Source of the DNA: Mucilaginibacter sp. | Lineage (GTDB): Bacteria; Bacteroidota; Bacteroidia; Sphingobacteriales; Sphingobacteriaceae | NCBI GenBank assembly: GCA_030445275.1 | Contig: JAUCSE010000053.1 | Location: 1-64,000, forward strand | Reading direction: 5' to 3' | Length of the DNA: 64,000 nt | Shown here: positions 9,859 through 44,671 of the stretch, piece after piece | How positions within the stretch are numbered: position 1 is the stretch's first letter | Layout: each line of letters starts with the position of its first letter | Program-made: the position numbers and the translations under genes | The notes under the pieces: model-generated | Databases searched by the model: none | Told to the model about the DNA's origin: nothing | The model's input: the letters and a program-made list of their open reading frames with translations, nothing else

Positions 9859-9870
9859 TAAACCGGTTTA
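9859..9870. promoter_or_regulatory. LacI-type operator palindrome TAAACCGGTTTA (site 1)
   Basis: Perfect 12-bp palindrome upstream of the left susC. Confidence 0.7.
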
Positions 9871-9924: not shown

Positions 9925-9936
9925 TAAACCGGTTTA
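9925..9936. promoter_or_regulatory. LacI-type operator palindrome TAAACCGGTTTA (site 2)
   Basis: Identical 12-bp palindrome 66 bp from site 1, same intergenic region. Confidence 0.7.
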
Positions 9937-15142: not shown

Positions 15143-16579
15143 CTATAGCTTCCAGCTAAACGTGTTAAAAGATTTTGGCTTTAAAGACAAGATAACTGAC
15201 TTGCCATTCATTCTCAGTACGACTTGTTTACTTGCCTGGTCGGAATTCATCATTAACAGGGTAACTGTCCCATCAGGATTAATAAAAGCTAAATGGTCAT
15301 TGCCGCCCGAAGTTTGAATGCGATATGCGCCGGGCATGACAAAATGCGAGAGATGTTTCATGAGGTAAAATTCTGGATTATAACGAATCTCACCGCTCTG
15401 CTTATTGATAGAGATCAACATATTCTGTGGCCATCCCCAACTGCTTTCGCCCGAACTATCCAAAACCATATTCCAGTACATATAAGAATTTGCGCCATTG
15501 GTCAGGTAATGCTGCAGCAATGTCCAGGTATGTTCCGCGGATGCCCAGTTATTCTCTCCTTCACCACACTCTGACTCCGTCTGCATCAGCTCAAATTTCG
15601 GAAATTCCTTGCTGATCGCCGAAATTGCTTTTTTTCCCGCCCACTGCAAACCAACCCCTTTAATATATTTGGATGTAGCTGTATCCGTCAAAATGCGACG
15701 CACATAGTCCGGATTTCCATTATTAATGGTACCCAGCCATATGTCCGTAGAAATACTATCGGTTTTAAATTTTGGACCGAGATATTTTCTGATAAACAAG
15801 GCCAGGTCCTCCGGCCTCCAGGTACAGCTTGGCCACTGGGGAGCATAAACTACCTCGTTCTGAACATTAATAGCGGAGATATCAATGCCTTCCTTTTTGT
15901 AAGCCTTGACAAATCTGGAAAAATAAAGTGCATAGGCCTCCAGGTAACTATTCTCCATTTTAAAAGCAGTAGCATTATCACCTATATTTTTCAAGATGCC
16001 CATTTCGTTGTCGCCTCTTTTCATGCCTTTAACACCACCTGATGTGAGCGCATAATGGTTATTAACTTTCATCCAAACCGGGGGACTCCAGGGGGAAGCC
16101 CATATTTTTAAGCTTGGGTGTATTTTTTGAGCAGCGTGAATGTAGGGAATAAGAATATAGCGATCCCTATCAATGTTAAAGTTGCGCATCGTAAAATCAT
16201 CAGGGACATCATCGAGGGAATACCAGCTGAGTGCATAGTCACTTGCACCGATCGGCATGCGACAAATAGAGAAATTAGCGCCGGCCGTTGCAAAGAGTTC
16301 TTGTAAAATCTTATTTCGCTGACCGGCATTTAATGATGCCAGGGCCTCCCATCCAATCTCGTTAAAACAGCCTCCGAAACCATCAATCCTTTGCAGCTGT
16401 TGCTCCGGATAAATTGTAAGTGTTGGTTGTTCACTGTTTGGAGATTTAAAGGTCAGCTCTTTTTCCTGCGTCCACTGGGCCGCAGGCAGAGAAGAAACCC
16501 ATTGGATTTTTTGCCCATAGCCTATTGAAATAGCTGTAAAAATAAAAAAAAGCAGACTGTTGATTTTCTTTTTGTTCAC
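15143..16579 (-). CDS. GH30 family glycoside hydrolase
   Basis: 'QRIDGFGGCFNEIGWEAL', 'WASPWSPPVWMKVN', 'NVQNEVVYAPQWPSC', 'QTESECGEGENNW', C-terminal beta domain. Track ORF starts at 16672; a GTG at 16579 followed by a signal peptide (VNKKKINSLLFFIFTAISIGYGQ) is more likely. Confidence 0.9.
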   Translation of the reverse strand: MNKKKINSLLFFIFTAISIGYGQKIQWVSSLPAAQWTQEKELTFKSPNSEQPTLTIYPEQQLQRIDGFGGCFNEIGWEALASLNAGQRNKILQELFATAGANFSICRMPIGASDYALSWYSLDDVPDDFTMRNFNIDRDRYILIPYIHAAQKIHPSLKIWASPWSPPVWMKVNNHYALTSGGVKGMKRGDNEMGILKNIGDNATAFKMENSYLEAYALYFSRFVKAYKKEGIDISAINVQNEVVYAPQWPSCTWRPEDLALFIRKYLGPKFKTDSISTDIWLGTINNGNPDYVRRILTDTATSKYIKGVGLQWAGKKAISAISKEFPKFELMQTESECGEGENNWASAEHTWTLLQHYLTNGANSYMYWNMVLDSSGESSWGWPQNMLISINKQSGEIRYNPEFYLMKHLSHFVMPGAYRIQTSGGNDHLAFINPDGTVTLLMMNSDQASKQVVLRMNGKSVILSLKPKSFNTFSWKL

Positions 16580-16650
16580 GATAGATTTGTTACACTTTCC
16601 GATTAGAATAAAAGCTAAATTCGTGATATCCTGATGGTAATACCATGCAT

Positions 16651-16680
16651 TTTCTGACCAACTATTTATCATTATTGACC
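16651..16680 (-). promoter_or_regulatory. candidate HTCS operator: 21-bp-spaced direct repeat (site C)
   Basis: Minus strand GGTCAATAATGATAAATAGTTGGTCAGAAA; GGTCA half-sites exactly 21 bp apart, upstream of the GH30 gene. Confidence 0.5.
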
Positions 16681-16885
16681 GGAAGGGTGTCGGGGTAAAT
16701 GATTTCGATGATATAGACAGCCATTAGTTTTTGATGCTTTGACCCTTATTTCCTCCCCCGTCGACGGTCGCTGAAAAAAGTCATTTTTTTCTTTAACAAA
16801 CGGGGATATATTCTGCGGTGGGCATTTGAGTTTTGATTCTCATACAATGATCGGTAACTGGCTACGCAGAACTTCTTATTGAAAA

Positions 16886-19258
16886 TTATTTGAGTCCATT
16901 TACGGTTATTGATAAAAATTTCTGAGCATCATATTTCGGGGTACTGGCCTGGTCATTAATAAAAATCCTTTTTACGCCTTTAATTCCCAAAGAGGCACGT
17001 ATTAATGGTTGACCCTGAATCTGTACTTTTAATACATTATCTTCTTTATCTGCGTATAGGAATACTTTGGAGAGTGAACTCAATAAAACCTGACCTCCTT
17101 TTCGGAGATAGCTCCCGTTACTAATAAAAACTGATGAAAGTTTTGTTGGGTCATTTCGGTCCGCTCCTACAGGAAAGGTTACGGCACTGAGATAGGCGTC
17201 GGTTTCCCAACCGTTGATCTCATTGCTGGAGTTCCGATGCATCAACCTTCCGTCCGCTAAAAGATTGATATACACTTCACTGACCTGCCCGTTTTGAGTA
17301 ATACGTATCCCGAGATAGTCGTTGCCCTGAAACTTCTCGATCACCGGTATATTTGTGCGGCCGGAAGATGCGTTGGCACCCGATGATCCGGTAAACGTTT
17401 GTACTTGTTGATTGCCGTCATTCAACAGAATAATCGCATTTATGAATTTGGTGCGATCGGTCTTTTCCGGTGGCGAGATGACATAATAGGGTATCTTTAC
17501 GTCGAAGGTCCTGTCTTTAATACCATAATCAACGTTCAGCTTCATCTTCTCCGGAAAATCATGGGGATAACCCAGCGGTAAAGTTTCCGGGTACAAGGGA
17601 CGAAATAATATACCCGCCTTTTCCCTGGTAATCTCCAGGTCGGGACCTCGTTTCACGGCTGTATCCGCATAATGCAGCAGAAAGTCTAGTTTACCGATAT
17701 CATAAGTTTTGACATCGTCGATGATCAATATCACATTACCTATCCAAAGGAAATTTCTATAATTACGCAGAAAATTTTTGGATGTAGGTCCCGTAACATC
17801 TGCCATAATGTATTTAAGCTTATCACCATCAATCATATGATATAAGTGGCCGGAATTTTTGACAGCGTGATACTCATCCTGGTTATCCTGGGCCTCACCG
17901 TTGAACATCAATACATTGTGGGCACGGCTGGTGACAAAATAACTGCTGTATTCAGGCCTGGCATAATTGACATCGCCACCGTCAATGAGCAAATTCTGGC
18001 CGTTATGGTAGAGCACAAAAGAACCCGCGTCAGCATGGGCGTGGTTCCAGGTAAATCCGCATTTGACTCCCAGTAAAGTGGCATCGGGTTTCCATGAGGA
18101 CCGAAGCATGCCCCAGCCCAATCCCGTATAAATTGAAGAGGTTGGCAATGATGGTATGGAGGCAGCGTGCCTGTTGTCCGGCTCGTAAAGCATTCCCATC
18201 GGCGTGCTTATATTCAGATCTTCCCGCCAATTTTTCTTCGCGGTATAGCTTAAGTACCAGGAATAGTCCGCTTTCCCTAAGCCCAACGCGATCAATAACT
18301 TAATGGGCTTATCTCCGTTGGCATAATCATTACTGTCTCCGAAATTCAGGGACATCAATGGTCCGGCCGAACGGGGATATCCTGCATGCAGGAACCAATC
18401 CGCGGTTCTTTGCAATAGACCATCGTAAGGCATTTTAACCGGTTTAAGCGCGTTTGTATAAGCCAGCCTAAATAACAAATATTCTGAAACACCATAATTT
18501 GCATAACCAATACTTTCGTAAAATCCACCGTCCGGGTCAAAAGTTGAAGGCTTATTTTCAAGCACACTTCCGGAAAAGCCAAACCATTCCGGGCTATCAT
18601 CCATAATCGACCGGGCCCATTCCCTTGCTTCCGGAACGTCATTCATTACGGCTAACGACGCGATGCCGGCTTCAAACACAATAGCCGACCACCAATTATG
18701 GCCCATGTTATTCAGTGACTGGATTCTTTTATCTTTTGATAACCAGTCTCCGATACTGGGTTCAATACCCAGTTTAACTATTTTCTGGGCTATTTCTCCT
18801 TTTTCCGTAGCTGAAAGCGTGTTGTAAATGGCGTCATAAGTTACAGCTGTTACCCAGTTGCTATGACTGGTCCCTAAGCCGGAGTTCCAACGGGGTTCAC
18901 GATCATCCATACCATCCCATTCCTTGCGATTGACAACATCATCAAGTAAGCTTTTGGCCCGTTCGGCATAACGCCCATTCCCGGTCATTGCATAAGCTAA
19001 TGCTAACTGCTCCATGTCGCCAACTTTAGGTTTGGTGAGCCATTGATCACAACGATCCTTTAACGCGTTCCAGTTATTGGCCAGGCCGGTATCCGTTTTG
19101 ATGCGCTCTTTTAGTATTGACGTTCTTTGAGGTGTATAAAAAAGAAATGGATGCATTTTTTTTTCCTGCGCCTGAACAACGTTAAATCCCAGTAAACAAA
19201 CACCAAGAAGAGAAATTGTCAGGCGGGCCATGTGGCGTCTTTTGTATTGATATCTCAT
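16886..19258 (-). CDS. heparinase II/III-like polysaccharide lyase family protein
   Basis: N-terminal alpha-toroid ('NNMGHNWWSAIVFEAG', 'DGGFYESIGYANYG') and 'TWNHAHADAGSFVLYHNGQNLLIDGGDVNY' of the heparinase II/III domain. Confidence 0.85.
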   Translation of the reverse strand: MRYQYKRRHMARLTISLLGVCLLGFNVVQAQEKKMHPFLFYTPQRTSILKERIKTDTGLANNWNALKDRCDQWLTKPKVGDMEQLALAYAMTGNGRYAERAKSLLDDVVNRKEWDGMDDREPRWNSGLGTSHSNWVTAVTYDAIYNTLSATEKGEIAQKIVKLGIEPSIGDWLSKDKRIQSLNNMGHNWWSAIVFEAGIASLAVMNDVPEAREWARSIMDDSPEWFGFSGSVLENKPSTFDPDGGFYESIGYANYGVSEYLLFRLAYTNALKPVKMPYDGLLQRTADWFLHAGYPRSAGPLMSLNFGDSNDYANGDKPIKLLIALGLGKADYSWYLSYTAKKNWREDLNISTPMGMLYEPDNRHAASIPSLPTSSIYTGLGWGMLRSSWKPDATLLGVKCGFTWNHAHADAGSFVLYHNGQNLLIDGGDVNYARPEYSSYFVTSRAHNVLMFNGEAQDNQDEYHAVKNSGHLYHMIDGDKLKYIMADVTGPTSKNFLRNYRNFLWIGNVILIIDDVKTYDIGKLDFLLHYADTAVKRGPDLEITREKAGILFRPLYPETLPLGYPHDFPEKMKLNVDYGIKDRTFDVKIPYYVISPPEKTDRTKFINAIILLNDGNQQVQTFTGSSGANASSGRTNIPVIEKFQGNDYLGIRITQNGQVSEVYINLLADGRLMHRNSSNEINGWETDAYLSAVTFPVGADRNDPTKLSSVFISNGSYLRKGGQVLLSSLSKVFLYADKEDNVLKVQIQGQPLIRASLGIKGVKRIFINDQASTPKYDAQKFLSITVNGLK

Positions 19259-19433
19259 GTCAGTATAAAAATTAGAAAAAAGGATCCGGACTTATCGATT
19301 CTTTATATAAAATAGCTGCTTTACCAGGATCGCAATTTCCATGATGTTGCGATGCCCTATTACGTTGATCATAAAAATACTAAAAAAGGAATATCAGCTA
19401 TTTAAAGTTGAGATTCAGCTTTTCGCCCATTCT

Positions 19434-21071
19434 TTATTTTGTAATTCTGAACCAATCAAAATCTGCATACCCGCCAATGCGAACATTCGGTTTGCTGATG
19501 CAAAATAATCCAACTTTAGCGCCGATCCACTTATCCGGCTTCGCCTTAAATGCATTCCCTATATCATGAAAGTTGATGCCATCTTCACTGTAACTAAACG
19601 TACATAACGCGTCAGGAGCGGCAACATGAACCCGCAAATAAACCACTGAGCTTTTTAATCTTTGTTCCGCTAAAATCTCCTCTGCACCGGCATTTAGCGC
19701 ATCATGACAAACCACTTGTGACACTTTAAAACCCAATTCGTCTCTTGCTATCGCTAAATAACTGTAACTGTTTCCCATCATGATTAATCCGGCCTTCTTA
19801 TTTTGCCACACATCCCATTCGACCTCGTATTTCAGCCTGGTGGTCGCTGTAAAATCAGGGGCCGGTAGTTTTTGCAGTAACAGGTTAGGTGTCGTCCAAA
19901 GATTAACCGCGTTATTATCCTGCGGATAAGCGAACAACCGTAAATAGCCAGAACCTTTAATCTGAGCGCTCCACTGGATTTTAGGATTGGCGTGCCATTG
20001 CCATTGCAGGCCAGGTTGATCGCCATTAAATTCGTCACCTTCGGCAGGTGTTTCAATGGGATAGGTTTCTCCGATGTCCGGTTTTTTGTGGGTAAGAAAC
20101 GGCTCTCCCGTACCATCACCGTCCTGATCATTGCCAATAACCGGCCAGTTGTTCAACCATTTTACCGGCTGTAAATGAACTACGCGTCCGTAAACACCCT
20201 TGTCCTGGAAATGAATAAACCAGGGCTCACCTGTTTGGGTCTCTACCAGCGCACCCTGGTGAGGACCGTTCACTGTGGTTCTGCCCTGGTCCATTATTAC
20301 CTTATCCTCATAAGGGCCATAAATATTCCTGGAGCGTAATGCTACCTGCCAGCCTGTGGCTACTCCCCCCGCAGGTGCCAGGATGTAGTAGTAGCCATTA
20401 CGCTTATAAAGTTTGGGACCTTCTATAGTGTGATTTTTCCCATGTCCGTCATAAACATGCGTACCCGCATCAATGACAGCGGTCCCGCTAATCTTCATCT
20501 TAAAAATAGTAATGAGGCTGTTGACACCGGCGCGGCTGCTGGCCCAGCCCACCCCTAAATAAGCTTTGCCGTCCTCATCCCAAAAGGGAGCAGGGTCAAT
20601 AACCCCTTTGCCTGGCAATACCAATACCGGTTTTTCCCAGTCACCCGCCGGATTTTTGGTTTTAACCATATAGATACCATAATCCGGGTCGGGATAGTAT
20701 ATATAAAACTCGTTGTTATGATAACGGATGCAGGGTGCCCAAACACCCTTACCGTGTTGCGGCAAATCATAAACAGCTGCCGGTTCCTGCATCTTCAATG
20801 CGTGATTGATTAACACCCAGTTCACCAGGTCTTTAGAATGCAGTATGGGCAAACCCGGCATGCAATTGAAGCTGGACGATACCATATAAAAATCACTCCC
20901 TACGCGGATGGCATCGGGGTCAGAATAATCGGCATTAATAATAGGATTTTGGTAAGTGCCATTGCCTTTATCAGCAACCCAAACTTTGGATACCTGCGCA
21001 AAACCTTGCCGGGTAACCATCAATAGGATCACCCCCGCTATTAACTTGTTCATAAAATCTTTTTTATACAT
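19434..21071 (-). CDS. GH43 family glycoside hydrolase with C-terminal concanavalin-like domain
   Basis: 'YQNPIINADYSDPDAIRVGSDFYMVSSSFNCMPGLPILHSKDLVNW', 'IDPAPFWDEDGKAYL', 'TIEGPKLYKRNGYYYILAPAGG'. Confidence 0.92.
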   Translation of the reverse strand: MYKKDFMNKLIAGVILLMVTRQGFAQVSKVWVADKGNGTYQNPIINADYSDPDAIRVGSDFYMVSSSFNCMPGLPILHSKDLVNWVLINHALKMQEPAAVYDLPQHGKGVWAPCIRYHNNEFYIYYPDPDYGIYMVKTKNPAGDWEKPVLVLPGKGVIDPAPFWDEDGKAYLGVGWASSRAGVNSLITIFKMKISGTAVIDAGTHVYDGHGKNHTIEGPKLYKRNGYYYILAPAGGVATGWQVALRSRNIYGPYEDKVIMDQGRTTVNGPHQGALVETQTGEPWFIHFQDKGVYGRVVHLQPVKWLNNWPVIGNDQDGDGTGEPFLTHKKPDIGETYPIETPAEGDEFNGDQPGLQWQWHANPKIQWSAQIKGSGYLRLFAYPQDNNAVNLWTTPNLLLQKLPAPDFTATTRLKYEVEWDVWQNKKAGLIMMGNSYSYLAIARDELGFKVSQVVCHDALNAGAEEILAEQRLKSSVVYLRVHVAAPDALCTFSYSEDGINFHDIGNAFKAKPDKWIGAKVGLFCISKPNVRIGGYADFDWFRITK

Positions 21072-21152
21072 TATTCAAGCTGTAAATCATATTAATTCAA
21101 ATTCCAATAAACCTCGTAACGCTGATTGAAGTGGCTATCGAAATGCTTTTCT

Positions 21153-22382
21153 TCAGTGCTTAACCTTATAAAACTTTGCCCCAAACAAGAAAATAACGAC
21201 ATAGCAGATGATCGGCAGATAATAAGCATGGGCAACATTCTGGTTAGCTATTTGTCCCATTAACATAGGGAACAGCGCACCGCCTACAACTCCCATAGCT
21301 ATAAATGATGAAGCCTGTTGGGTATGACCGCCCAGGTTTTTGATTCCCAGGCTGAAAATAGTCGGAAACATAATGCTGAAAAAAAAGTTGATCATTAGTA
21401 AGGCGATGTAGGACGTCCAACCCAAATGCTGTGCTACGATCAGGCACATTAAAATACTACCGCAGGCAAAGCCGGCCAATAGTTTATTGGGGGCGATGTA
21501 AGTCATTAAAGATGTACCTACAATACGACCAAGTGCCATCATCCCCATAAACACGATCATGAAATATCCTGCTTTTTCATTACTGAAATGCATAATATCA
21601 ACACCATAGTTAATAAAATACGCCCAGGTGCCGGCCTGTGCCGCCACGTTAAAAAACTGTGCGGCCACCGCCCATATAAAATGTGCCTGCTGATATAGCT
21701 TTTTTTCCGGTGCCGCATATAGATTAACCACATCCGTTTCCGTTGCTTCAACATGCGGATCGGTTAACGCGGGGATTTTTAAAAACATAAAAGCAACCGC
21801 TATCAATATAATCACGCAACCGATGGCTACATACAGTGTTTTTACGGAGGTCAGGTCAGTTGAGCGCACCGTGTCCGAACTCAGCAGGAAATAAGAACCA
21901 ATGGCAGGACCGACCATGGTGCCTACAGCATTGAAGGTTTGTGCGAAATTTACGCGCTGGTCACTCCGGCGCTGATCGCCCAGTGCTGCTGCAAAAGGGT
22001 GTGCGACCGTTTCCAAAGTCGCCATGCCACAACCCATAATGAACAGGGCGATCCTGAAAAAGGTAAAGGATGCGGCATTGGCCGCGGGCACAAACAAAAA
22101 CAGGCCCAAAGCAAATAAGCACAGTCCCAGTATCACACCCGGCTTATAGCCAAACTTCTTTAAAAAATAACCTGCCGGGATACTCATAATAAAATAGGCC
22201 CCGAAAACGGAGAACTGGATCAAACCGGATTGGGACTTAGAAAGATTAAGCACATTTTGAAAATGCTTGTTCAACACATCACTCATGGAGTGCAGCAATC
22301 CCCACATTAAAAACAGAGAGGTTACAAAAACGAAAGCTATTATAAATTTCCTTTCGGTGAACGCTGGTTTGTCTGGTGTCAT
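21153..22382 (-). CDS. sugar MFS transporter, FucP-like
   Basis: 12-TM pattern; 'FVTSLFLMWGLLHSMSDVLNKHFQNVLNLSKSQSGLIQFSVFGAYFIMSIPAG', 'SIMFPTIFSLGIKNLGGHTQQASSFIAMGVVGGALFP'. Confidence 0.92.
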   Translation of the reverse strand: MTPDKPAFTERKFIIAFVFVTSLFLMWGLLHSMSDVLNKHFQNVLNLSKSQSGLIQFSVFGAYFIMSIPAGYFLKKFGYKPGVILGLCLFALGLFLFVPAANAASFTFFRIALFIMGCGMATLETVAHPFAAALGDQRRSDQRVNFAQTFNAVGTMVGPAIGSYFLLSSDTVRSTDLTSVKTLYVAIGCVIILIAVAFMFLKIPALTDPHVEATETDVVNLYAAPEKKLYQQAHFIWAVAAQFFNVAAQAGTWAYFINYGVDIMHFSNEKAGYFMIVFMGMMALGRIVGTSLMTYIAPNKLLAGFACGSILMCLIVAQHLGWTSYIALLMINFFFSIMFPTIFSLGIKNLGGHTQQASSFIAMGVVGGALFPMLMGQIANQNVAHAYYLPIICYVVIFLFGAKFYKVKH

Positions 22383-23293
22383 ATATTTTTAGGTATTTTG
22401 TTTGAAGCGGATGCTTTCTCAGCAGGTTTAAATAAGGCAGCGGCTCCGGTCAGAGCAGCTAATTCACCTGTCTGAGCCAGGCCGATCGTCAATGCTTTAA
22501 AGCGATCCTTTACTAAAGGCAAAAAGAGTTCTCCTGCTCGGGCGATATTTCCACAGATGATGATCATTTCAGGTTCATATCGCTCTACAGGGCCTTTAAG
22601 AAAAGCGCAAAGGTTATCAGAAAATTCTTCGAAGATCATTCGCGTTAGCTTTCTGTTATCCGGGTTGCTAACTAATTCTTTCACATTGCACACCGATCTT
22701 CCAGTAACCTCCCTGTATCGCCGCACAAACCATCTCGTCGAAAAATGGTCGTCGGCAATTGATTCCTTATAAGGGTCAGCACCTAAATTAAGATCGCTGA
22801 TAAGACCATCTTTAAAGAATGCGGATCCAAAACCGGTACCTAAGGTGATGCCCATCAGGTTATTAAAACCTTTCCCTGCACCCGCGATACACTCGCCTAA
22901 AATAGTGGCTTCCGCATCGTTTCTAAATTTTATGAGGCTGCCATGAATCTGTAGCGCATTGGAAAGATAATTCTTTACATCAACTCCATAAATCGACTCG
23001 TATTTATCGAATCCTTTTATAAAAGACACCCCATGGTCGTAATCAAAAGGCCCGGGCACAGCGAGGGCAACGCCTGAAATATGAACAAAGGATTGCTGCA
23101 ATACCCGATCCAGTGCATTGCTCCAGGCATGTAAAATATCTGCAGCGCTGCCCTTACTGTCAATATCAACCCTTACTAAGGACTGCTCCAAAACGGTATT
23201 GGTTTTACAATCGCAAATGGCGGCTGTCAAATGAGAGCCGCCGATGTCGGCACTTAAGATATAAGGTGTGTAAATGTTTTTGATGGACATCAT
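22379..23293 (-). CDS. ROK family sugar kinase
   Basis: 'LSADIGGSHLTAAICD', 'NDAEATILGECIAGAGKGFNNLMGITLGTGFGSAFFKDG'; 4-bp overlap with the transporter gene. Confidence 0.88.
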   Translation of the reverse strand: MMSIKNIYTPYILSADIGGSHLTAAICDCKTNTVLEQSLVRVDIDSKGSAADILHAWSNALDRVLQQSFVHISGVALAVPGPFDYDHGVSFIKGFDKYESIYGVDVKNYLSNALQIHGSLIKFRNDAEATILGECIAGAGKGFNNLMGITLGTGFGSAFFKDGLISDLNLGADPYKESIADDHFSTRWFVRRYREVTGRSVCNVKELVSNPDNRKLTRMIFEEFSDNLCAFLKGPVERYEPEMIIICGNIARAGELFLPLVKDRFKALTIGLAQTGELAALTGAAALFKPAEKASASNKIPKNI

Positions 23294-23528
23294 TGAATTT
23301 ATTTCGCTATGGGGTTTATGCTGCGCTTTCCAGCATTAATGCCTCATCAGCCGACGGCCGAAGGCTGATATTTAAAGTTGTTTTGGGTGTAACCATTTTT
23401 ATTATTTTTAACATGGGGTATTGATCCATAAATTCAAACTATAACCAATAGCTTATATCTTTTATCCGCTTCCGAATTTTCAGCGCAGGGTTTAACCTGC
23501 CTGTATCGCTATTGGTCATTGTACCCGG

Positions 23529-24737
23529 TTACCTACTCGCAGGCAAGTTTTTACGGTTTATCTTTTGTAATCTCATTAATGCCTCCAGGTAATAATAATC
23601 GGCATAGATGATGGAGGCATCTATTTCGCTGCCGGCCGGATGATGGCCTGTTGAGTGGAGTAGAAAAGCGCTGTTTGTACTCCTGCTTTGGTAAGCCGCC
23701 GATGATAATGTAGTTAACATCGCGACAGCTTGTTTGTAATAATAGTCGGCCTTGGCCTTATCGGATACAAAACCCGATAGCTGCAGCAGGGCCGATGCCG
23801 TTACAGCTGCTGCCGATGCATCGCGCGGCGCGTTTGGAATGGCGGGATCATTAAAATCCCAATAGGGAATACGATCGGCCGGTAAACGTTGCAGATATAC
23901 ATCGGCTACTTTTTGCGCGAAATTTAAAAACTCGGCTTTTCTAGTTTCACGATAACACATGGTAAAGCCATAAATTGCCCATGATTGACCACGCGCCCAC
24001 ATAGAACTATCGGCATAACCCTGATGAGTTATACCTTTTATCTTTTTTCCGGTTACGGTATCATAGACCACGACATGGTATGAAGTATAATCGGGCCGGA
24101 AATGATTGCGCATCGTAGTTTCAGCATGACGAACAGCTATATCATACAGTTCATGGCTTCCTCCGTTTTTTGATGCCCAGAACAGCAATTCCAGATTGAT
24201 CATGTTGTCAATAATGGTATTATGAGGCCATCCCATTTTTTTGACCATTTGTGGCCATGATAGTATGGTTCCGACCCTGGGATTAAATAAAGTGGCCAGC
24301 GAATCGGCAGATCTCAAGATCACCTGTTTGTATGCCGTACTTTTGGTAAGCTGATATCCTTGACCAAAGCTATTCAATACCATAAAACCCAGGTCGTGAT
24401 CAAAGCCGCTCTGGCTGGATAACGGCGTCAATTCACGGGTAAACCTATCGGCCTGAATTTTCCATTTGTCATTGTGCGTTACCGCATAAAGATCCCATAA
24501 AATGCCAGGCCAAAAACCACTGCACCAATCATGATAATCTACATAACGCCATACATTTTTGTCGTGGTCAATGCCTCTTGGGATATTGTAATCTCCTGGC
24601 GGTATTTGGTTCAGTGTCTTTTGTGCCTGGTCCGCACAATAGGCAATTTCACGGGCTGTATTTATCGTTTGCGCCCATCCCAAAGTATATACGGATGGCA
24701 ACAGCCATATGATCAAAACGGTAACTATTATTTTCAA
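23529..24737 (-). CDS. GH88-like unsaturated glucuronyl hydrolase
   Basis: 'VDYHDWCSGFWPGILWDLY', 'HDLGFMVLNSFGQGYQLT', 'THQGYADSSMWARGQSWAIYGFTMCYRET', 'IPYWDFNDPAIPNAPRDASAAAVTASALLQLSG'. Confidence 0.92.
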   Translation of the reverse strand: MKIIVTVLIIWLLPSVYTLGWAQTINTAREIAYCADQAQKTLNQIPPGDYNIPRGIDHDKNVWRYVDYHDWCSGFWPGILWDLYAVTHNDKWKIQADRFTRELTPLSSQSGFDHDLGFMVLNSFGQGYQLTKSTAYKQVILRSADSLATLFNPRVGTILSWPQMVKKMGWPHNTIIDNMINLELLFWASKNGGSHELYDIAVRHAETTMRNHFRPDYTSYHVVVYDTVTGKKIKGITHQGYADSSMWARGQSWAIYGFTMCYRETRKAEFLNFAQKVADVYLQRLPADRIPYWDFNDPAIPNAPRDASAAAVTASALLQLSGFVSDKAKADYYYKQAVAMLTTLSSAAYQSRSTNSAFLLHSTGHHPAGSEIDASIIYADYYYLEALMRLQKINRKNLPASR

Positions 24738-25055
24738 TTTGAAGAAGAGTTGGTGAATATTTTGCTTTGTAAATTAACTGAGTTGATATTCCGGAAGCGT
24801 GTAGCAGCTAAAAAAGCCTTTCGTGTAAGTATAATAGTAAAGTACTTCATAGGATGTAGGATAATCTTAAAATCGTTTAGCTGTTTTCCGGATTGTTAAA
24901 AATCATGGCCTTTTACCGGAGCTCCATTCGTGTTGATCAGTCATATACTTTATTTAGATGGCAATAAGCCCCAAACCTCAATAACAGCCGAAATTCCGCG
25001 TTTGTCATCACCGGTGCGGTCAAATGTACTTACAAATGTTCCGTCCCGCCATTCC

Positions 25056-25087
25056 CCTTCTGACCTGAAATTTGCCGTTTCTGACCT
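25056..25087 (-). promoter_or_regulatory. candidate HTCS operator: 21-bp-spaced direct repeat (site B)
   Basis: Minus strand AGGTCAGAAACGGCAAATTTCAGGTCAGAAGG; two AGGTCAGAA half-sites 21 bp apart in the intergenic region upstream of GH88. Confidence 0.65.
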
Positions 25088-25132
25088 AACTATTGAAATA
25101 ACACTGTACATATATTCTATAAATTAAGCTAG

Positions 25133-26071
25133 TTACGATGCGACCTTTTCGTAATTATTCAGGAAGAGGTTTGGTATCTTATTAAGTTCAAACCGGTACT
25201 TCGACGGTGTCATACTCATTTTCTTCTTGAATATTCTTGAGAAATGAAATTCAGTGGCAAATCCGGTTGTAAAAGCTATCTCAGAAATTGTCATATCGGA
25301 TCCAGCAAGCATCTGACAGGCCTTTTCAAGCTTTAGATTTAAGTGGTATTGCCCGGGCGAAATTCCCGATAGTTCCCTAAAACTCCTGCGCAACCAGGTA
25401 TAGCTTACGTGATATTGCTTCGCCAAATCTTTGATTTGTATTTGTTTAGACCATTGCTCTTGAATTTTAAGTTTTAGATTATTGACGATATCTTCTTTTC
25501 GGTTCTGTTGTTTATCATTAAACAATGTGGCGGAGTAAGCGATTCCAAGTAGTTGCATTACTCCACAAGAAAAGATTCGGCTGATAGGCGCCCGATCTGA
25601 TTTTAGCGATTCAAATAGCTTTCCAAAAACCATTACAAATTCGCTGTTTAGCCCAATATTGGTCAAGAGGTTGTATTTGTTGAAGCATTCCTGTTTCATT
25701 AAATATTCCGGATAATGTCCTTTAAATCCAATCCAATACTCTTCCCAACCACATTCAAATGTCGGTGTATACCGATGCCATAACCCTGGCGCAATCAGGA
25801 ATACGGATCCGGGTTTCACCGCAACCATACCCAGGGATTCAGATTCAAATACTCCGGTACCCGAGGCGATATAAATGAGCTGGTATTCATTTAAAACCCG
25901 GCCTTCAGCCCAATCAAATGAATAAGGTTCCGGATGGGCCTGATCGGGATAGGGCTGATATGGCAAGTGGATATGGTGCCCTATATTCATGATCTCGAAT
26001 CCCCAATCGGGTTCTCCCGGGCATTTATCTGCCGTTTCAACTGTCGTAAAATACTTTCTGTATGGCTCCAT
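25133..26071 (-). CDS. AraC family transcriptional regulator with cupin sensor domain
   Basis: N-terminal cupin-like domain; C-terminal double HTH 'IQIKDLAKQYHVSYTWLRRSFRELSGISPGQYHLNLKLEKACQML...ISEIAFTTGFATEFHFSRIFKKKMSMTPSKYR'. Confidence 0.93.
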   Translation of the reverse strand: MEPYRKYFTTVETADKCPGEPDWGFEIMNIGHHIHLPYQPYPDQAHPEPYSFDWAEGRVLNEYQLIYIASGTGVFESESLGMVAVKPGSVFLIAPGLWHRYTPTFECGWEEYWIGFKGHYPEYLMKQECFNKYNLLTNIGLNSEFVMVFGKLFESLKSDRAPISRIFSCGVMQLLGIAYSATLFNDKQQNRKEDIVNNLKLKIQEQWSKQIQIKDLAKQYHVSYTWLRRSFRELSGISPGQYHLNLKLEKACQMLAGSDMTISEIAFTTGFATEFHFSRIFKKKMSMTPSKYRFELNKIPNLFLNNYEKVAS

Positions 26072-26410
26072 AAAATTACTTTTTAAACTGAGAGCCCCCC
26101 TTTGTCATGGACATCGACATACATCATGATGTGTACTTAACCGATTTAGTTACCGGGGCATAATTATTCGCCGGTTAGCAGAACCGTTTATACTTGTCAA
26201 TGAAAATCCTCAGGTACGCTCAAAAATTTATGATTGAACTATAGGCTTGGTTATAATGGGATCCAATGTCGTTCGAAATCGCGATTTGGAACATACACAA
26301 ATCGGTTTAATAGCCTATACAAATTATTCAAAAAAGGGCGGTAAGGCCGTTTATCGGGTAGTTTTTATAAAAATGAACCGGAGGGGCGAGAAGTTTTGTG
26401 GGAAAAACGC

Positions 26411-26422
26411 TAAACCGGTTAT
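26411..26422. promoter_or_regulatory. LacI-type operator-like site TAAACCGGTTAT
   Basis: Close match to TAAACCGGTTTA, in the intergenic region upstream of the AraC gene. Confidence 0.4.
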
Positions 26423-26460
26423 AAATAAACAGCGTGAAAATGGCGGGTAAATTATTGCTT

Positions 26461-29400
26461 TTACCTTTTCACGCTTCTGTGCTTATTGATAAACTCGGAT
26501 GGGTTAAGCCCAAAAACTTTAAAAAACTGAGCCCTGAAGTAATGCGTCTGTTGGAAGCCGACTGAGAAAGCAATTTCCTTTACCTGCAAATTGGTATTGA
26601 TCATCAGCTCCGCGGCTTTACGAAGGCGGATAAACCTTATAAATTCGTTAATTGACAAGCCGGAAATAGATTTGATCCTTTTAAACAGGGCTGACTGGCT
26701 CATGCCCAGCTTAGCAGTCAGCTGTTTTACATTAAAGGCATCATCGGTCAAATTCTCCTCAACGATTAAAATGCATTTTGATAAAAAATCCCGGTATTCT
26801 TCGGAAACTTTGATGGAATGGTTTTTAAGGGTAATTTCATTGATAAAATAGCTTTTTAAAGTTCTTCTGGTTTTTAAAATACCTTTAATCCTGGCCAGTA
26901 ATAAATCATTTTCGAAGGGTTTGGTAATATAATCGTCCGCGCCATTTTCCAGTCCCTTCAGTTTAATCTCCGATGCAGAACTATTGGTTAATAATATGAA
27001 CGGAATATAATTCAACACAGGAGATTCTTTCACTTTTAAGCATAGGTCAACACCACTCATTCCATTCATAAACACGTCGCATACGATGATATCCGGTTCT
27101 GAATTCGCAATAGTGGTGAAGCCCAATTCAGCAGTATCGGCTTCGATTACCTGATATTCTTTTATCAATAGGCTTTTGAGATAGCTTCTCAACTCTGCAT
27201 CGTCGTCAATGAGCATAACAACTGGCTTATCAGAAACCATTTTGGTTAATTTATCTTCAAAACCGGCGCTTACTCCGGGTGTTCCAATGTTTTCGCTTAT
27301 ATCAGGAAAGATCTCGCTGCTGAGATTAGATATTTTGTTATAAATATCCGGTAAATATTCTGCATCGTATGGTTCGGTCGTAAGCGGGAGCATGACAAAA
27401 AAATCAGTTCCTCCATTTAATCTGTTTTGAAAGCCGATACGTCCACTGTGAATATCAACGAGCTTTTTTGAAATAAATAACCCGATGCCGAAACCTGATT
27501 CCGCTTTTTCCGGGGCTCCCGGGATCCTGTAAAACTTATCAAACAGGTTTTCGGCAGCAATGGGAGGTATTCCGGGACCGGTATCACTTATGGTCACCTT
27601 TGCCTGCCCCCCTACCTCCTCAACTTTCAGAACAACAGATCCATGGTCTGGCGTATATTTAACTGCATTTGATAACAGATTAAAGAAAACGATCTCTAGT
27701 TTTTCACGATCCGCATGGATGGTCAGACCGGTCTCCGGTTTCTCAAAAGCGTAATTAATTTTCTTGGACTTTACCTGGTTGTTAAAACAGAGGAAAACCT
27801 CTTCGCAAAGATTTGCCAAATTAACCGGACCGAGATTCAGGTCTGAAATTTCTTCTTCCGTTTTACGAAACAACATTAACTGATCGACCATGCTCAAAAG
27901 CCTCCTGGTGTTCCGGTACACCGCGTTCAGGTCTACCGCGTCAGCATCCTTCTTATCGATAGCCAATTCTCTGATCGGATTAATGATCAGTGTCAGCGGC
28001 GCCCGCAACTCATGGGAAATATTGGTAAAAAATGAAATTCGTTTTTCATTTATTTCTTTTTCCTGTACCGTTTTCAGATTGGCGAGTTTTATTTCATATG
28101 ATAAGCGGGTTTGCTTTTTCTGATAATAGAGATATAGGTAAATGACCGCACCAAGTACACAAAAATAGCTTACATAAGCATACCAGGATCGGTACCAGGG
28201 GGGCAATACCGTAATATACATGAGCCTTTCCGCAGGGTTCCAAACTCCGGATGGATTAGTACATTTAATGTGCAAGGTATACCTGCCTTCGTTTAATTTC
28301 GAATAATTTGCGGAATGCAAATTATTGACATAAATCCAGGACTTATCCCAGCCTTCCATATAGTAAGCATAGTTGATCTTCTCAGGGATCGAAAATTCCA
28401 ATGCCACAAAGTCCAGCGACAATACCGCGTTATCGAAGGGCATAACGATGTTTTTTATCTCGTAGATACTGGGCGCATCTTTTACAAATTCACTTTTAGC
28501 ATCGATATTTTCGTTGGCAATTCTCACCGCGGTCAATAATAATTTCGGAAAATCCGTAAATTGTTTAATACCAGCAGGTTGAAAGATATTAAACCCATTA
28601 ATCCCACCGAACAGCAACTCCCCGTTACTCAGTTTTCCAGCGGCATTTAAATTAAATTGATTGGATTGCAGGCCGTCAGCCGCATAGAAATTTTCAGACC
28701 TGTGATTAACAGGATCAAACTTGGAAAGCCCGTTAAATGTGCTCATCCAAAGAAAATGCTGATTATCTTCCTCAATATTAAGAATGGTGTTATTCGATAA
28801 ACCATTTTTTTCAGTAAACTGTTCAAAGGTGTGTTTTTTGGTATCATAAAGAAGCAAGCCTCTGCCATAGGTGCCGATCCAAAGGTTTCCATTGCTCTCA
28901 AATAATGCCGTGACGGGAATTCCCAGATTAGTCGATGTGGTCGCTCCGGTTCGGGTGTTAATTTGACTGAATCCTGTATAATTACCAACCCAAATGGTAT
29001 CATCCTTGTTAGCAGTAATCGATATGATCTGTGGTTTAACATCATAGGGAACGGGTACAAATTTCCTGATCGTCTGATCATATACATACAATCCTTTTTC
29101 CAAGTTTCCGGGCCACCTGCCCAATACACAACCTGCCCATATACGCTTTTGCGCGTCTATGTAAAGCTTCTTGACATATTTTAAGCCCTTATCTTGCTGG
29201 ACGAAGGGAATTGTCGTAAACTGCCCGGTCCGGGGATCAAATTTATTAACGCCCCCCCCATAAGTTGCTATCCATAGGTTATTCAACTCATCGCGAACGA
29301 TGCTGTAGACGCGATTGCTGCTGATGGAATGAATGTCGGTGCTGTCATGAACATAGTTTTTAAACTCACCGGATCGGGGATTCCAATAACTTACCCCTCC

Positions 29401-30531
29401 TCTTTCCAGGCCAATCCAGATGTTGTGATGTTCATCCTCGCAGAAAGCAGTTGGGAGATTGGAAATTAAGGTATTGCTCGCATTGGATTCATGGCCGATC
29501 GTCCTGAACTGGTTTTTCTTATTGTCAATTACATCTACCCCGCCGCCAAAAGTCCCGAACCATTTTCGTTGGTCTTTGTCGACCAAAATAGCGTGAACGA
29601 TATCACTGGTAATGGAACCTTTATTGCCTTGTTTCATGACCTTGACGCTGTGGACCCCAAATACATCTGCCAAGGCTATGCCGTCCCCGTCAGTAGCTAT
29701 CCACAGTTTGTTGGTTTTGTCGAAGCCAAGGTCGAAAATCCTGGCATTATCCAGGGTCCCTGTCTTAAACTGATATCTGGAAAGGACTTTATTACGGGTG
29801 TCGAGCAATAGCACACCCTGGTTTGTTCCCATCCAGAGTACATTGTTGATGTCTTCCCGGATAGTGTTTACATGGATATTTGCAGGAAACATCAAAATCA
29901 CCGAATCTGACACGGCATCATATAGCCCCACACCAATACCATCGATCACCACCCAGGTCTGATTGTGCGAATCTGTTTTGATCGATTGGAGCCGGGCATT
30001 AGCTAAAATAAAATGACGCTTTCTATCTACGACAGCGATCTGTTTACCTACTCTTTTGCCTTTGTTATAGACGATCAACCCCAAAGCGTTGGTGCCAACA
30101 AATACCTGTCCTTGCCGGTTGGTCTGGATAGTATAAACCGGATTGTCCATTTTCCTAAGCTTACCCATGTGTCCATACCGGCTAAAATAGGTGCCTGAAA
30201 ACTTGAATGTCTGATTATCAAGGATACCAATACCCTTTTCTGTTCCAACCCATAAATCCTCTAATTGATCTTCGGCTATGGTGTTCACCTCCTGACTCGG
30301 CAATGATGTCGAATCGCCGATGGTTGTCCTGAATTTTTTCAAACTCGAACCATCGTATCTATTCAGTCCATCAAATGTGCCAAACCACATAAAACCAAAA
30401 TGATCCTGATAAACGCAATTGACACTATTGTTGGAAAGTCCTTGTTCCAGGCCAATTGATGTTACGGTTTGTGCAAAATCAGCTTCTACCCCTATAAAAA
30501 TCACAAAAAGAATAGAAATCAGATACTTCAT
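26461..30531 (-). CDS. hybrid two-component system regulator (HTCS: beta-propeller/Y_Y_Y sensor, HK, REC, AraC HTH)
   Basis: Signal peptide, repeated two-component propeller motifs (DHFGFMWFGTFDGLNRYDG), Y_Y_Y domain, HisKA 'SFFTNISHELRAPLTLI', HATPase, REC 'VVMLIDDDAELRSYL...PDIIVCDVFMNGMSGVDLC', C-terminal AraC HTH. Confidence 0.97.
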   Translation of the reverse strand: MKYLISILFVIFIGVEADFAQTVTSIGLEQGLSNNSVNCVYQDHFGFMWFGTFDGLNRYDGSSLKKFRTTIGDSTSLPSQEVNTIAEDQLEDLWVGTEKGIGILDNQTFKFSGTYFSRYGHMGKLRKMDNPVYTIQTNRQGQVFVGTNALGLIVYNKGKRVGKQIAVVDRKRHFILANARLQSIKTDSHNQTWVVIDGIGVGLYDAVSDSVILMFPANIHVNTIREDINNVLWMGTNQGVLLLDTRNKVLSRYQFKTGTLDNARIFDLGFDKTNKLWIATDGDGIALADVFGVHSVKVMKQGNKGSITSDIVHAILVDKDQRKWFGTFGGGVDVIDNKKNQFRTIGHESNASNTLISNLPTAFCEDEHHNIWIGLERGGVSYWNPRSGEFKNYVHDSTDIHSISSNRVYSIVRDELNNLWIATYGGGVNKFDPRTGQFTTIPFVQQDKGLKYVKKLYIDAQKRIWAGCVLGRWPGNLEKGLYVYDQTIRKFVPVPYDVKPQIISITANKDDTIWVGNYTGFSQINTRTGATTSTNLGIPVTALFESNGNLWIGTYGRGLLLYDTKKHTFEQFTEKNGLSNNTILNIEEDNQHFLWMSTFNGLSKFDPVNHRSENFYAADGLQSNQFNLNAAGKLSNGELLFGGINGFNIFQPAGIKQFTDFPKLLLTAVRIANENIDAKSEFVKDAPSIYEIKNIVMPFDNAVLSLDFVALEFSIPEKINYAYYMEGWDKSWIYVNNLHSANYSKLNEGRYTLHIKCTNPSGVWNPAERLMYITVLPPWYRSWYAYVSYFCVLGAVIYLYLYYQKKQTRLSYEIKLANLKTVQEKEINEKRISFFTNISHELRAPLTLIINPIRELAIDKKDADAVDLNAVYRNTRRLLSMVDQLMLFRKTEEEISDLNLGPVNLANLCEEVFLCFNNQVKSKKINYAFEKPETGLTIHADREKLEIVFFNLLSNAVKYTPDHGSVVLKVEEVGGQAKVTISDTGPGIPPIAAENLFDKFYRIPGAPEKAESGFGIGLFISKKLVDIHSGRIGFQNRLNGGTDFFVMLPLTTEPYDAEYLPDIYNKISNLSSEIFPDISENIGTPGVSAGFEDKLTKMVSDKPVVMLIDDDAELRSYLKSLLIKEYQVIEADTAELGFTTIANSEPDIIVCDVFMNGMSGVDLCLKVKESPVLNYIPFILLTNSSASEIKLKGLENGADDYITKPFENDLLLARIKGILKTRRTLKSYFINEITLKNHSIKVSEEYRDFLSKCILIVEENLTDDAFNVKQLTAKLGMSQSALFKRIKSISGLSINEFIRFIRLRKAAELMINTNLQVKEIAFSVGFQQTHYFRAQFFKVFGLNPSEFINKHRSVKR

Positions 30532-30655
30532 AGATTATTCATAGCAATCGTTCACCTCTATATACAAATATCTAATGATTTGCCAGATATCGGCATAATA
30601 AAAAACTCGTTTTCGAAATACTTTATGCAACCAGGCATGCCCACGAATCCTTTTT

Positions 30656-30687
30656 GACAGAAACGCCAAAATTTAGGTCAGAAAGGC
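30656..30687 (+). promoter_or_regulatory. candidate HTCS operator: 21-bp-spaced direct repeat (site A)
   Basis: GACAGAAACGCCAAAATTTAGGTCAGAAAGGC; CAGAAA half-sites exactly 21 bp apart, about 70-100 bp upstream of the right susC. Confidence 0.65.
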
Positions 30688-30756
30688 GAAATTCCCGCTT
30701 ATATCATATAGTTAATTTTGAGGATTATCAATTAACCAATATTAAACCACCAACGC

Positions 30757-33700
30757 ATGAGGAATTTTACTTTTAAAATCAAATGGAAAATTTTGCCGGC
30801 TGTATTATCCTTAGTACTGCTGTTGTGTATAAAGGCGAACGCGCAAAACGCGCCCGTTAGCGGTACGGTTATCGATGCCCAGTCCAACCAAACCGTGATC
30901 GGGGCAACGGTTATTATTAAAGGCTCTACCGCCGGTACCGCGACGGACGTGAAAGGCGCTTTCAAATTAGCCGTTCAACCGGGGGCTATGCTGGAAATCA
31001 GAAGCATCGGTTATCAAACGATGACCTTGCCGGCCGACTTTGCCAAAGCCATGATGATCAGGCTTCAGCCTGATAACAGCAAGCTCAGCGAGGTCGTCGT
31101 GGTGGGTTATTCCACCACCCAGAAAAGGGCCACGCTTACTGGTGCGATCAGCACGCTGGACTCAACTACCTTTAAAAATAGGGTGTCCACCAATCCCCTG
31201 AGTGCCATACAAGGTTCTGTGCCCGGCGTTGTGGTATCGCGCACTTCGGGTAAACCAGGCCAGGAGAATTGGAATTTTCAAGTTCGCGGTGCCTCCTCAA
31301 CCAACTCCACGCCACCTTTGGTTGTGGTAGACGGGGTACCCTATACAGATCCGAGTATCTTAAGTTCTTTCAACAATGACGACATCGCTACCATGTCATT
31401 CCTGAAAGACGGATCCGCAGCGATCTACGGTGCCCGGGCGGCAAACGGGGTTGTCCTGATCACCACCAAAACAGGTAAATCCGGTGCGCCGGTTGTCAGC
31501 TATAACGGGCTTTATGCCTTAAAGCCGGTTGGCTTACTCCGTAAGTATACGACACTGCCACAATGGTATGAAATGGTCAATGAAGGCTATACCAATAATA
31601 ACGCGGTCAACCCCTTCAAAGCGTTCGAGCAATATTTCCTGAACCCCAACGGGCAGGTTGTCTCTCCGGGCGCTTTTAATCAGCCCGATGAGGCGTTCTT
31701 TAACTACGACCTGACCAAGGCACTTTTTACAACCGCATCCACCGACCAACAAAATGTTTCTATTTCCGGGCGTGGCAATAAAGCCGGTTATTATTTGTCA
31801 TTTGGTTATCTGGATGATGGCAGTAATTTAAAGTATGGCACCAATTTCAACAAAAAATACAATGCCCGCGTTAATACCGATTTCAATATACTGAAAGGAT
31901 TGAAGATCACCAATCAGCTGTTCTATGAGCGCCAGGACCGTGTAGAACCCTCTGCGCTAAGCACACTCCTATCCGGTCCTAGCAACACGCAGCCCGGGTC
32001 ACCGCTTTACCGTGCCGATGGTCAGCCGCTATACCAGTGGGGGCAGTTCCTGAGTCCCGTCGGCCTGGCTGAACAGGGCGGTGACAAAGAGCAGGTGGAT
32101 AACCGTATTAATGAACAGTTTGGTCTGAATTATGATATCAACGACTATTTCCGGCTGAACGGCTCCGCGGCCGTTCGCTATACCCTGACAGACCTCCAGC
32201 AGCATGTCAATAATATGAGCTTCACTAACTATGACGGTACAAAGGTCATTTCCCAGTATGGTATCGGGAATGACTTTAACTCCTTCAGAAGGGACTATCA
32301 GCAATCCACCTATCAAAGTTATTTTGCGAATGCGGAATATCACCAAACGTTCAACAGTGTACATAATGTATATGCCATGATCGGTGTGTCACAGGAAAAA
32401 TATCACTATGACACCTTTTGGAACAAAGTCAATAATATGCCACCGAGTTTGAACAACATTGGACAGGGCACCCCTCTTCCGAATGCGAGTGACACCAGGG
32501 GCGGTGATATTTATGACTGGGCGATCAACTCCTACTTTGGAAGGGCCACTTATAACTACAAAAGCAAATATTTATTTGAAGCGATAGGCCGCTATGATGG
32601 CTCGTCCAGGTTTACAGCCGCCAATAATCATCGCTGGAAATTCTTTCCAAGTGTTCTAGCTGCATGGGTAATCAGCAATGAACCATTTATGACAGACATC
32701 AAGTGGCTGAGTAACCTCAAACTTCGCGGATCATATGCGGTTGTAGGAAATCAGGCTGGTATCGGTAATTATGATTACATCGCCACCGTCAACAACAATT
32801 CGGGCGCTTATCCCTTTGGCACATCGAACCCTCCCACCAGTGTGACGACGACTTCACCCGGCGCCATTGTCGCGCCTGACCGGACATGGGAACAGGTAGA
32901 AACCAAAAATATAGGACTTGACTTTTCCCTGTTGGGTAACAAATTATCCGGAACGGTCGATATCTATGAAAAATATAACCGGAACATGCTAATCGCCGTC
33001 GTTTACCCCGTAACATTGGGCGGCACCGCCCCTTTAACCAACAACGGTAATTTAAGAACCAGGGGATATGATTTATCCTTAACCTGGAGTGATAAAATTG
33101 GCCAGGTTAATTATTCCATCACGGGTATTCTCAGTGATAATAAAAATAACCTCGTCAACATTGGCGGCGCGAATGTTCGTACTCCTGGTTTAAACGGCGG
33201 CGTGCAGGGCTTTCCGATCAACTCCTATTTCGGATATCAATATACCGGCATCATTCAAAACGCCGCCCAGTTAGCAGATTACAAAGCGACATTTTCAGGT
33301 GGTGGTTTGCCTGCTAACCTTGGCGTAGGTGATGCGATGTTTGCCGACCTGAACGGAGATCATAAGTTTGACGCCACCGATATCAAATATATGGGTAACA
33401 ACAACATCCGGATGAGCTTTTCCACCCGCCTGAATTTAAGCTGGAGTAATTTTGATTTTTCCGCTTTATTGCAGGGTGTTGGCCATCGTGATGCTTATAG
33501 GAACGGTTCTTTATATCGCCCGGCCGTAGGCAGTGGTTTTAACCTTTCTTCCTTTTTTTACCACAAGACCTGGAGTCCGGACAGACCTGATGCGCCTTAT
33601 CCAAAGCTGACTTCGGACGCTACGGTTCAGAACTATGATTATGCCGCGTCTAATCTCACCATCAAAAACAATCGGTATATCAGATTAAAAAACCTCGTGA

Positions 33701-33888
33701 TCGGTTATACCTTACCTAAAAGCCTTACCCAAAAAGCGGGCTTGTCCAAGGTGCGCGTTTATCTCTCGGGTGAAAACATATGGGAAGCCGCAGCCATTAA
33801 AGACGGCTGGGATCCGGAGGCTCCTGACAGCGTCGACCAGTTTCCGTTCTACCGCACCTACGCGCTTGGTTTAAACGTCACCTTTTAA
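30757..33888 (+). CDS. susC: SusC/RagA TonB-linked outer membrane protein
   Basis: Carboxypeptidase-D-like N-domain, 'SEVVVVGYSTTQKRATLTGAIS', 'GSAAIYGARAANGVVLITTKTGKSG', C-terminal barrel. Confidence 0.95.
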   Translation: MRNFTFKIKWKILPAVLSLVLLLCIKANAQNAPVSGTVIDAQSNQTVIGATVIIKGSTAGTATDVKGAFKLAVQPGAMLEIRSIGYQTMTLPADFAKAMMIRLQPDNSKLSEVVVVGYSTTQKRATLTGAISTLDSTTFKNRVSTNPLSAIQGSVPGVVVSRTSGKPGQENWNFQVRGASSTNSTPPLVVVDGVPYTDPSILSSFNNDDIATMSFLKDGSAAIYGARAANGVVLITTKTGKSGAPVVSYNGLYALKPVGLLRKYTTLPQWYEMVNEGYTNNNAVNPFKAFEQYFLNPNGQVVSPGAFNQPDEAFFNYDLTKALFTTASTDQQNVSISGRGNKAGYYLSFGYLDDGSNLKYGTNFNKKYNARVNTDFNILKGLKITNQLFYERQDRVEPSALSTLLSGPSNTQPGSPLYRADGQPLYQWGQFLSPVGLAEQGGDKEQVDNRINEQFGLNYDINDYFRLNGSAAVRYTLTDLQQHVNNMSFTNYDGTKVISQYGIGNDFNSFRRDYQQSTYQSYFANAEYHQTFNSVHNVYAMIGVSQEKYHYDTFWNKVNNMPPSLNNIGQGTPLPNASDTRGGDIYDWAINSYFGRATYNYKSKYLFEAIGRYDGSSRFTAANNHRWKFFPSVLAAWVISNEPFMTDIKWLSNLKLRGSYAVVGNQAGIGNYDYIATVNNNSGAYPFGTSNPPTSVTTTSPGAIVAPDRTWEQVETKNIGLDFSLLGNKLSGTVDIYEKYNRNMLIAVVYPVTLGGTAPLTNNGNLRTRGYDLSLTWSDKIGQVNYSITGILSDNKNNLVNIGGANVRTPGLNGGVQGFPINSYFGYQYTGIIQNAAQLADYKATFSGGGLPANLGVGDAMFADLNGDHKFDATDIKYMGNNNIRMSFSTRLNLSWSNFDFSALLQGVGHRDAYRNGSLYRPAVGSGFNLSSFFYHKTWSPDRPDAPYPKLTSDATVQNYDYAASNLTIKNNRYIRLKNLVIGYTLPKSLTQKAGLSKVRVYLSGENIWEAAAIKDGWDPEAPDSVDQFPFYRTYALGLNVTF

Positions 33889-35794: not shown

Positions 35795-35888
35795 GAACGA
35801 TTTCACTCCAGACCAGTAACTGTTCCGTCATGGTTTTACTTCTCCTTTTTGATTGATAATCCGGAAATCAGTTTACCCGCAATACACT

Positions 35889-38800: not shown

Positions 38801-38906
38801 AATCTTCGCGGAAGAACCAAGGAAGCAGGAAATGATCACTTATTATCTGTTATATAAATTTCTAAACTCGGAAAAAGGAAGAAATAAAAACAGAAAAGAG
38901 CATTAA
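35889..38906 (+). CDS. lantibiotic dehydratase (LanB-type, with C-terminal thiopeptide-type domain)
   Basis: 'FAPYLLLRMPAKN', 'LKYYNRFCFRPTPFGLFSSVTLAEW', 'FVIPRLTSAYNHS', C-terminal 'WLYLKIYAPRVGTSRLLLRLYPLLRR...QRWFFIRYEDHAPHVRLRMQV'. Met at 35889 preferred over the track start at 35853. Confidence 0.92.
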   Translation: MAYQFAPYLLLRMPAKNIKDYTTDISVIISDPLFRTAILMASPVFYFSLKRAGFIAADLSEKEQLTLLKYYNRFCFRPTPFGLFSSVTLAEWSEEYFPTTNAHPEYRAIVHTDQAYQNAIIQNTDQSALPSITIFEGNPSIYRALREFRFFRTSLDDNLKHREYQLQSIAFSRLLDDLISFCRNGKGRTEIVDYIIKKALCANDEGEAYADFLIDAQLLVNRMRPNITGNDYLIRLQEKLRKAKHTGNLPGTVSDLLKRKHPIQEGYFQGLKENLKMLLPDDMKALVPEELSIILYRDKQHETLGRNIRDKLSNGIDALMALTPAENLPAMAQFVKSYQRYFEGQCIPLLAALDPEIGIGYQQPAAGKDNPLLETLHIPAPPTNENVISWTAGHSCLLENWHRTNEEDLRVIRLSPAELEQLGPKESPLSILGMSVLFREAGDKVFIESAGGINAPALLGRFTIADPKIHAAACSMAEIQEQQNPDLLFAELLHLADPHVDNINRRAHIWHYELPITAASELPVERQLELADLYLTIYNNQVFLYSKKHSKFVIPRLTSAYNHSLNQLPIFRFLADLPYQYSRHNLSFDLRQFFPGLFFYPRVEYLSAILYPATWVLREEQLNLLRTSTAVQEIHIFKKLRQQLRLPKKFSMAEGDRQLVFYADRDADILFFIHCIRQKTEVILQEFLGNGEIRQYNAYLIPRERLLLPPPPTITNHLKAVRSKIKRKYIPGSEWLYLKIYAPRVGTSRLLLRLYPLLRRQYKHGCIQRWFFIRYEDHAPHVRLRMQVNPEAISEILLAFKAKLEDRVQHHVVREYQIDVYNRELERYALAGIDKTEDFFWTSSELVLHFINRVEDSTVHYLFALHSVRAIIETFIPDQDEQLLFSYKSYEEFLPEFKKMQVHVELDKKYRVLQKDIREALIGENNSFYRSSAKAARNFRGSITKLRESVPQEDDRILSYLRSIIHMHLNRIFAEEPRKQEMITYYLLYKFLNSEKGRNKNRKEH

Positions 38907-43566: not shown

Positions 43567-43572
43567 ACAGGT

Positions 43573-43600
43573 AAAAAGCGGTTCAGGCCGCTTTTTTTTT
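43573..43600 (+). terminator. Rho-independent terminator after rteC
   Basis: AAAAAGCGG TTCAGG CCGCTTTTTTTTTT. Confidence 0.88.
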
Positions 43601-44286: not shown

Positions 44287-44304
44287 CCCCTAAAAATCAG
44301 GACT

Positions 44305-44649: not shown

Positions 44650-44671
44650 TCAAATCAAAGGAGGATATATA

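Follow-up and report, generated by a model that had tools for sequence, protein, structure and literature searches.

A tandem repeat at three promoters of one PUL

In the window (the whole stretch of 64,000 nucleotides of a Mucilaginibacter sp. contig analysed here), it was found that three promoters of a PUL share a direct repeat, GGTCAGAA-N13-GGTCAGAA. The three sites, A, B, and C, are almost certainly landing sites for an AraC-type activator, as predicted from their sequences. The protein bound there is probably the cupin AraC encoded at 25133-26071 rather than the HTCS encoded at 26461-30531.

Site A (30655..30683, + strand) has the half-sites TGACAGAA / GGTCAGAA upstream of susC1, site B (25058..25086, - strand) has the perfect half-sites GGTCAGAA / GGTCAGAA upstream of GH88, and site C (16652..16680, - strand) has GGTCAATA / GGTCAGAA upstream of GH30; the mismatches to the pattern are 2, 0, and 2, respectively. 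A sequence-only reading of this DNA had described a shared repeat with half-sites exactly 21 bp apart and in one orientation relative to the downstream gene, and the three sequences were found just so, each site being oriented toward its downstream gene. Its ranking of site C as the weakest also holds. As in AraC/XylS-type tandem operators, the half-sites are direct, not inverted, and about 21 bp apart. In the aligned 21-mers, a second conserved block lies about 13 bp into each half-site. In AraC/XylS-type tandem operators, two boxes about 10-13 bp apart would be expected per half-site, one for each HTH motif. The six half-sites read aGGTCAGAAAnGnnAAATT, the A-rich second block being weak in B2 and C2, and this composite sequence may point to two contact boxes per monomer.

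Promoter geometry

The repeat lies at a fixed position just upstream of the core promoter, exactly at A and B and weakly at C, which is another feature of AraC/XylS-type tandem operators. At sites A and B, the Bacteroidota -7 element TAnnTTTG is found exactly 58 bp after the start of half-site 1, or 37 bp after half-site 2: TAATTTTG in the susC1 promoter (30713..30720, + strand) and TACATTTG downstream of site B (25021..25028, - strand). At site C, the weak -7-like element GAATTTAG (16615..16622, - strand) occupies the same +58 slot. Tandem AraC sites are textbook knowledge. In the class II activation by E. coli AraC at araI1-I2, two direct half-sites are 21 bp apart and the proximal one abuts the -35/-33 region. 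The PUL sites have the same tandem direct half-sites at 21 bp with the proximal one near the core promoter, but they differ in the half-site sequence and in having the Bacteroidota promoter (TAnnTTTG). By this analogy, the layout of A, B, and C is the expected architecture of a class II AraC-type activator.

Does the repeat occur elsewhere? The search pattern has 16 fixed bases and was used at <=2 mismatches. It was derived from site B, and the independent evidence lies in the agreement of A and C with B and in the further features common to the sites. In the window, A, B, and C were the only three matches, while 100 dinucleotide shuffles gave 0. A scan of the 7.09-Mb genome, proposed in the sequence-only reading as a check, gave nine matches, with about seven expected under a first-order Markov model; three of the nine are A, B, and C, which cluster within 14 kb, each upstream of a PUL gene and pointing at it. 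At <=3 mismatches, the whole genome has 54 matches against 61 in the reversed control, which is background, and therefore a genome-wide regulon for the repeat was ruled out. Rather, the repeat is local, non-random, and private to the PUL. A relaxed pattern gave four matches in the same genome (A, B, C, and one other; C was recovered with GAATTTAG) and 0 in the control. When the pattern was combined with the -7 element in 401 family genomes, two strong matches in one locus were found only in the genome of this strain. The totals in the other genomes were like those of the reversed control, except for one striking match in the genome G115. One-mismatch matches in G371/G089, G082, and G121 were rejected as operators, several of them lying inside coding ORFs.

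The PUL and its neighbourhood

The locus has two susCD pairs, GH30, a heparinase II/III-like protein, GH43, MFS, ROK, GH88, an alginate-lyase-like protein, and three LacI regulators, and its enzymes point to a PUL for an acidic glycan. Two of its regulators have AraC-type DNA-binding domains. One is the small cupin-type AraC (AraC_binding and HTH_18; 25133..26071, - strand), which is directly upstream of site B and had been overlooked in the sequence-only reading. The other is the HTCS, a hybrid two-component system and large membrane sensor (Reg_prop, Y_Y_Y, HisKA, HATPase, REC, and HTH_18; 26461..30531, - strand), which adjoins site A, as had been pointed out before, and is intact and divergent from susC1.

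The target of site A is susC1, encoding a TonB-dependent transporter-like protein (30757..33888, + strand), in the same operon as the susD1-like lipoprotein gene (33899..35653, + strand). The first gene downstream of site B encodes a GH88-like hydrolase (23529..24737, - strand), whose called start (TTG 24737) is about 320 bp from the site. About 290 bp separate the -7 element of site B from this start (24737-25028), and a 38-codon ORF begins at 24848. The target of site C encodes the GH30 glycosidase (15143..16580, - strand). An ORF was called at 16672, with its ATG inside site C. Judging from a signal-peptide-like N-terminus read from the sequence, GTG 16580 is more likely the start of a secreted GH30 than 16672, and the start was re-assigned. 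With this start, site C is upstream of GH30, and its earlier placement there is therefore borne out.

LacI-type palindromes (TAAACCGGTTTA and variants) were found at 9859-9870, 9925-9936, 26137-26148, 26298-26309, and 26411-26422, upstream of the second susC and of the cupin AraC gene; the window has 13 against 4 expected. The cupin AraC gene may be under LacI control. Immediately after the PUL is a lantibiotic dehydratase gene (LanB-like, 35853-38906), and RteC, TraG, TraJ, and TraM genes (42730-54501) represent a conjugative transposon bordering the PUL.

Within the genus, the pair susC1D1 has a single close relative, which is in the genome G234 and shows 83-84% identity. At the promoter of the orthologous susC of G234 (L098:2974-6180, 84%), TAATTTTG is kept and the repeat is absent, a LacI-type AAATCGATTT palindrome being in its place. 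Thus, an exchange of the regulator between the two susC genes is suggested.

Which regulator binds the repeat?

The cupin AraC is favoured because soluble AraC systems resemble the A, B, and C sites. In this family, soluble AraC regulators use 21-bp repeats whose register is that of A, B, and C, with a GGT-type box at -37. The G115 match consists of three tandem 21-bp copies of TTGGTCAGAATTCACAATAWA (one mismatch) in the same register. They lie in the gap that separates a DBD-only AraC gene from the gene downstream of it, the same arrangement as AraC - site B - GH88 in the window. For a third AraC gene, the 21-bp repeat is at -59/-38. Another cupin AraC is that of a mannan PUL, and 92 of the 150 genomes of the genus encode relatives of it. 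Its operator was derived here: several orthologs have GGTTAAAAAAGTATTA, the G of which is at -37 relative to the -7. In Pedobacter sp. BS3, a tandem site matching this operator fronts a susC gene. Like the PUL sites, the mannan-PUL operator has the 21-bp repeat in its best-preserved copies, the G of a GGT-type box at -37, a soluble cupin AraC, and (in BS3) a susC target. They differ in that GGTTAAAAAAGTATTA is found there and GGTCAGAAA-N4-AAAT here, and the ligand is presumed to be different.

In the mechanism proposed from these features, A, B, and C would all serve as operators for the same AraC/XylS-type activator. Two monomers would bind head to tail to the tandem half-sites (GGTCAGAAA-N4-AAAT) 21 bp apart. 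With its distance of 37 bp to the -7 element downstream, the proximal half-site would be placed for the contact of a class II activator with RNA polymerase. Most likely, the activator would be the cytoplasmic cupin AraC, which would respond to a glycan breakdown product by activating susC1D1, GH30, and the GH88 promoter.

Several results speak against the cupin AraC. Only two orthologs near 50% identity were found, in Pedobacter sp. BS3 (55%) and G282 (49%); the HTH residues are largely conserved in both, but neither genome has repeat sites beyond the control level. A single BS3 match was rejected as the site of the cupin AraC ortholog, belonging instead to the different, mannan-PUL AraC. The repeat was not found at the promoter of the cupin AraC gene itself. 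Moreover, HTCS genes usually control the susC beside them, and no other candidate for an HTCS operator was found in the window.

The main alternative is that the operator belongs to HTCS 26461-30531, as the sequence-only reading had proposed. The DNA-binding domain of the HTCS would then have diverged from its clade, with a shift from the ancestral C-rich sites to GGTCA repeats. This is possible, though clearly less likely than binding by the cupin AraC. The earlier proposal stands in that the sites have the form of an AraC-type tandem operator and that the intact HTCS is divergent from susC; it is weakened in that the cupin AraC adjoins site B and the HTCS homologs use a different operator. 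The sites also have the general form of an HTCS operator, in that direct repeats spaced by about 21 bp lie close to both an HTCS gene and susC. The link of HTCS output domains to direct repeats, also drawn in that reading, agrees with the literature, where 16 HTCS motifs of B. theta have been described as 21-bp direct repeats and HTCS motifs average 21 bp (PMC3878776). Like the Bacteroides HTCS operators (Ravcheev et al. 2013, PMC3878776), the sites described here are tandem repeats of about 21 bp that precede both susCD and glycosidase genes within a single PUL. The operators of HTCSs in the host's family differ in their C-rich half-sites, their spacing of about 22 bp, and their register; the assignment of GGTCA to the HTCS is putative.

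The comparison covered the nearest HTCS relatives (43-50% identity), namely HTCS2 (contig 159864-163904), which belongs to a second PUL of this contig, and proteins encoded in other genomes. The promoters of the associated susC and enzyme genes have ACCCCYYTTGTTTGACC-N5-ACCCCC, and in almost every one of the 18 sites TTTGACC precedes the -7 by about 40 bp. The half-sites of this operator are C-rich and about 22 bp apart, with boxes near -50/-28. In a second HTCS clade, the footprint conserved in eight orthologs consists of GCCCCCT repeats at about -51/-29, with a spacing of 22 bp. A PWM search of the window for ACCCCYYTTGTTTGACC-N5-ACCCCC gave no match, and no GCCCCCT repeats of the second clade were found there. 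The second PUL, at 158-180 kb of the contig and outside the window, has the C-rich operator (ACCCC..TTTGACC..ACCCCC) at five promoters (L106:15774; L107:5558, 6900, 13646, and 15889), and these sites are a clear predicted regulon of HTCS2. The spacing and register of A, B, and C fit the soluble AraC systems and not the two HTCS clades of the same family. In addition, GGTCA points toward the promoter, while the conserved TTTGACC box of the relatives is the opposite reading. The difference between the -50/-28 and -58/-37 registers is, however, less decisive for the cupin AraC, since it hinges on which box per monomer is conserved.

In favour of the HTCS are the absence of the clade operator from the window, the cupin AraC orthologs lacking a site, and the recognition helices. 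The helices MSQSALFKRIK / GFQQTHYFRAQF are unique among the 34 types seen and occur in no relative, whereas four of the HTCS relatives with identical recognition helices share one operator; the HTCS may therefore read another sequence. A natural specificity switch, from C-rich 22-bp to GGTCA 21-bp repeats with the ancestral operator retained by the paralog that lies 130 kb along the contig, is slightly more doubtful still. Such a switch might have come about through the replacement of K/R by H and of E by A where helix-turn-helix 2 usually contacts bases, together with the loss of the S/CHIP contact motif. In the receiver of the HTCS, the S/CHIP of most HTCSs is replaced by NYIP, a change that has been linked to loss of the inhibitory REC-DBD contact (PMC11253607).

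It is improbable that a third AraC-type protein encoded elsewhere binds the sites or that both local regulators compete for them: many AraC/HTCS proteins are encoded in the genome, but the sites are only in the PUL, so a local regulator is the simplest assumption. Chance, or leftover sequence similarity without function, is very hard to believe despite a pattern taken from the sites themselves, the weakness of site C, and the lack of the repeat at the 84%-identical, palindrome-bearing susC of G234, given the empty shuffles, the cluster of three sites, and the identical distance to the -7 element.

Significance

HTCS direct-repeat motifs of about 21 bp were already predicted in 2013 (PMC3878776). 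The present analysis gives a concrete, testable PUL operator, predicted together with its promoter geometry. It also distinguishes two operator classes in one bacterial family, the C-rich 22-bp class of two HTCS clades and the GGT-type 21-bp class of soluble AraC regulators, a split that would aid in assigning regulators to PULs from sequence. The LacI-type palindrome at the 84%-identical susC of G234 suggests that PUL transport genes swap their regulators quickly.
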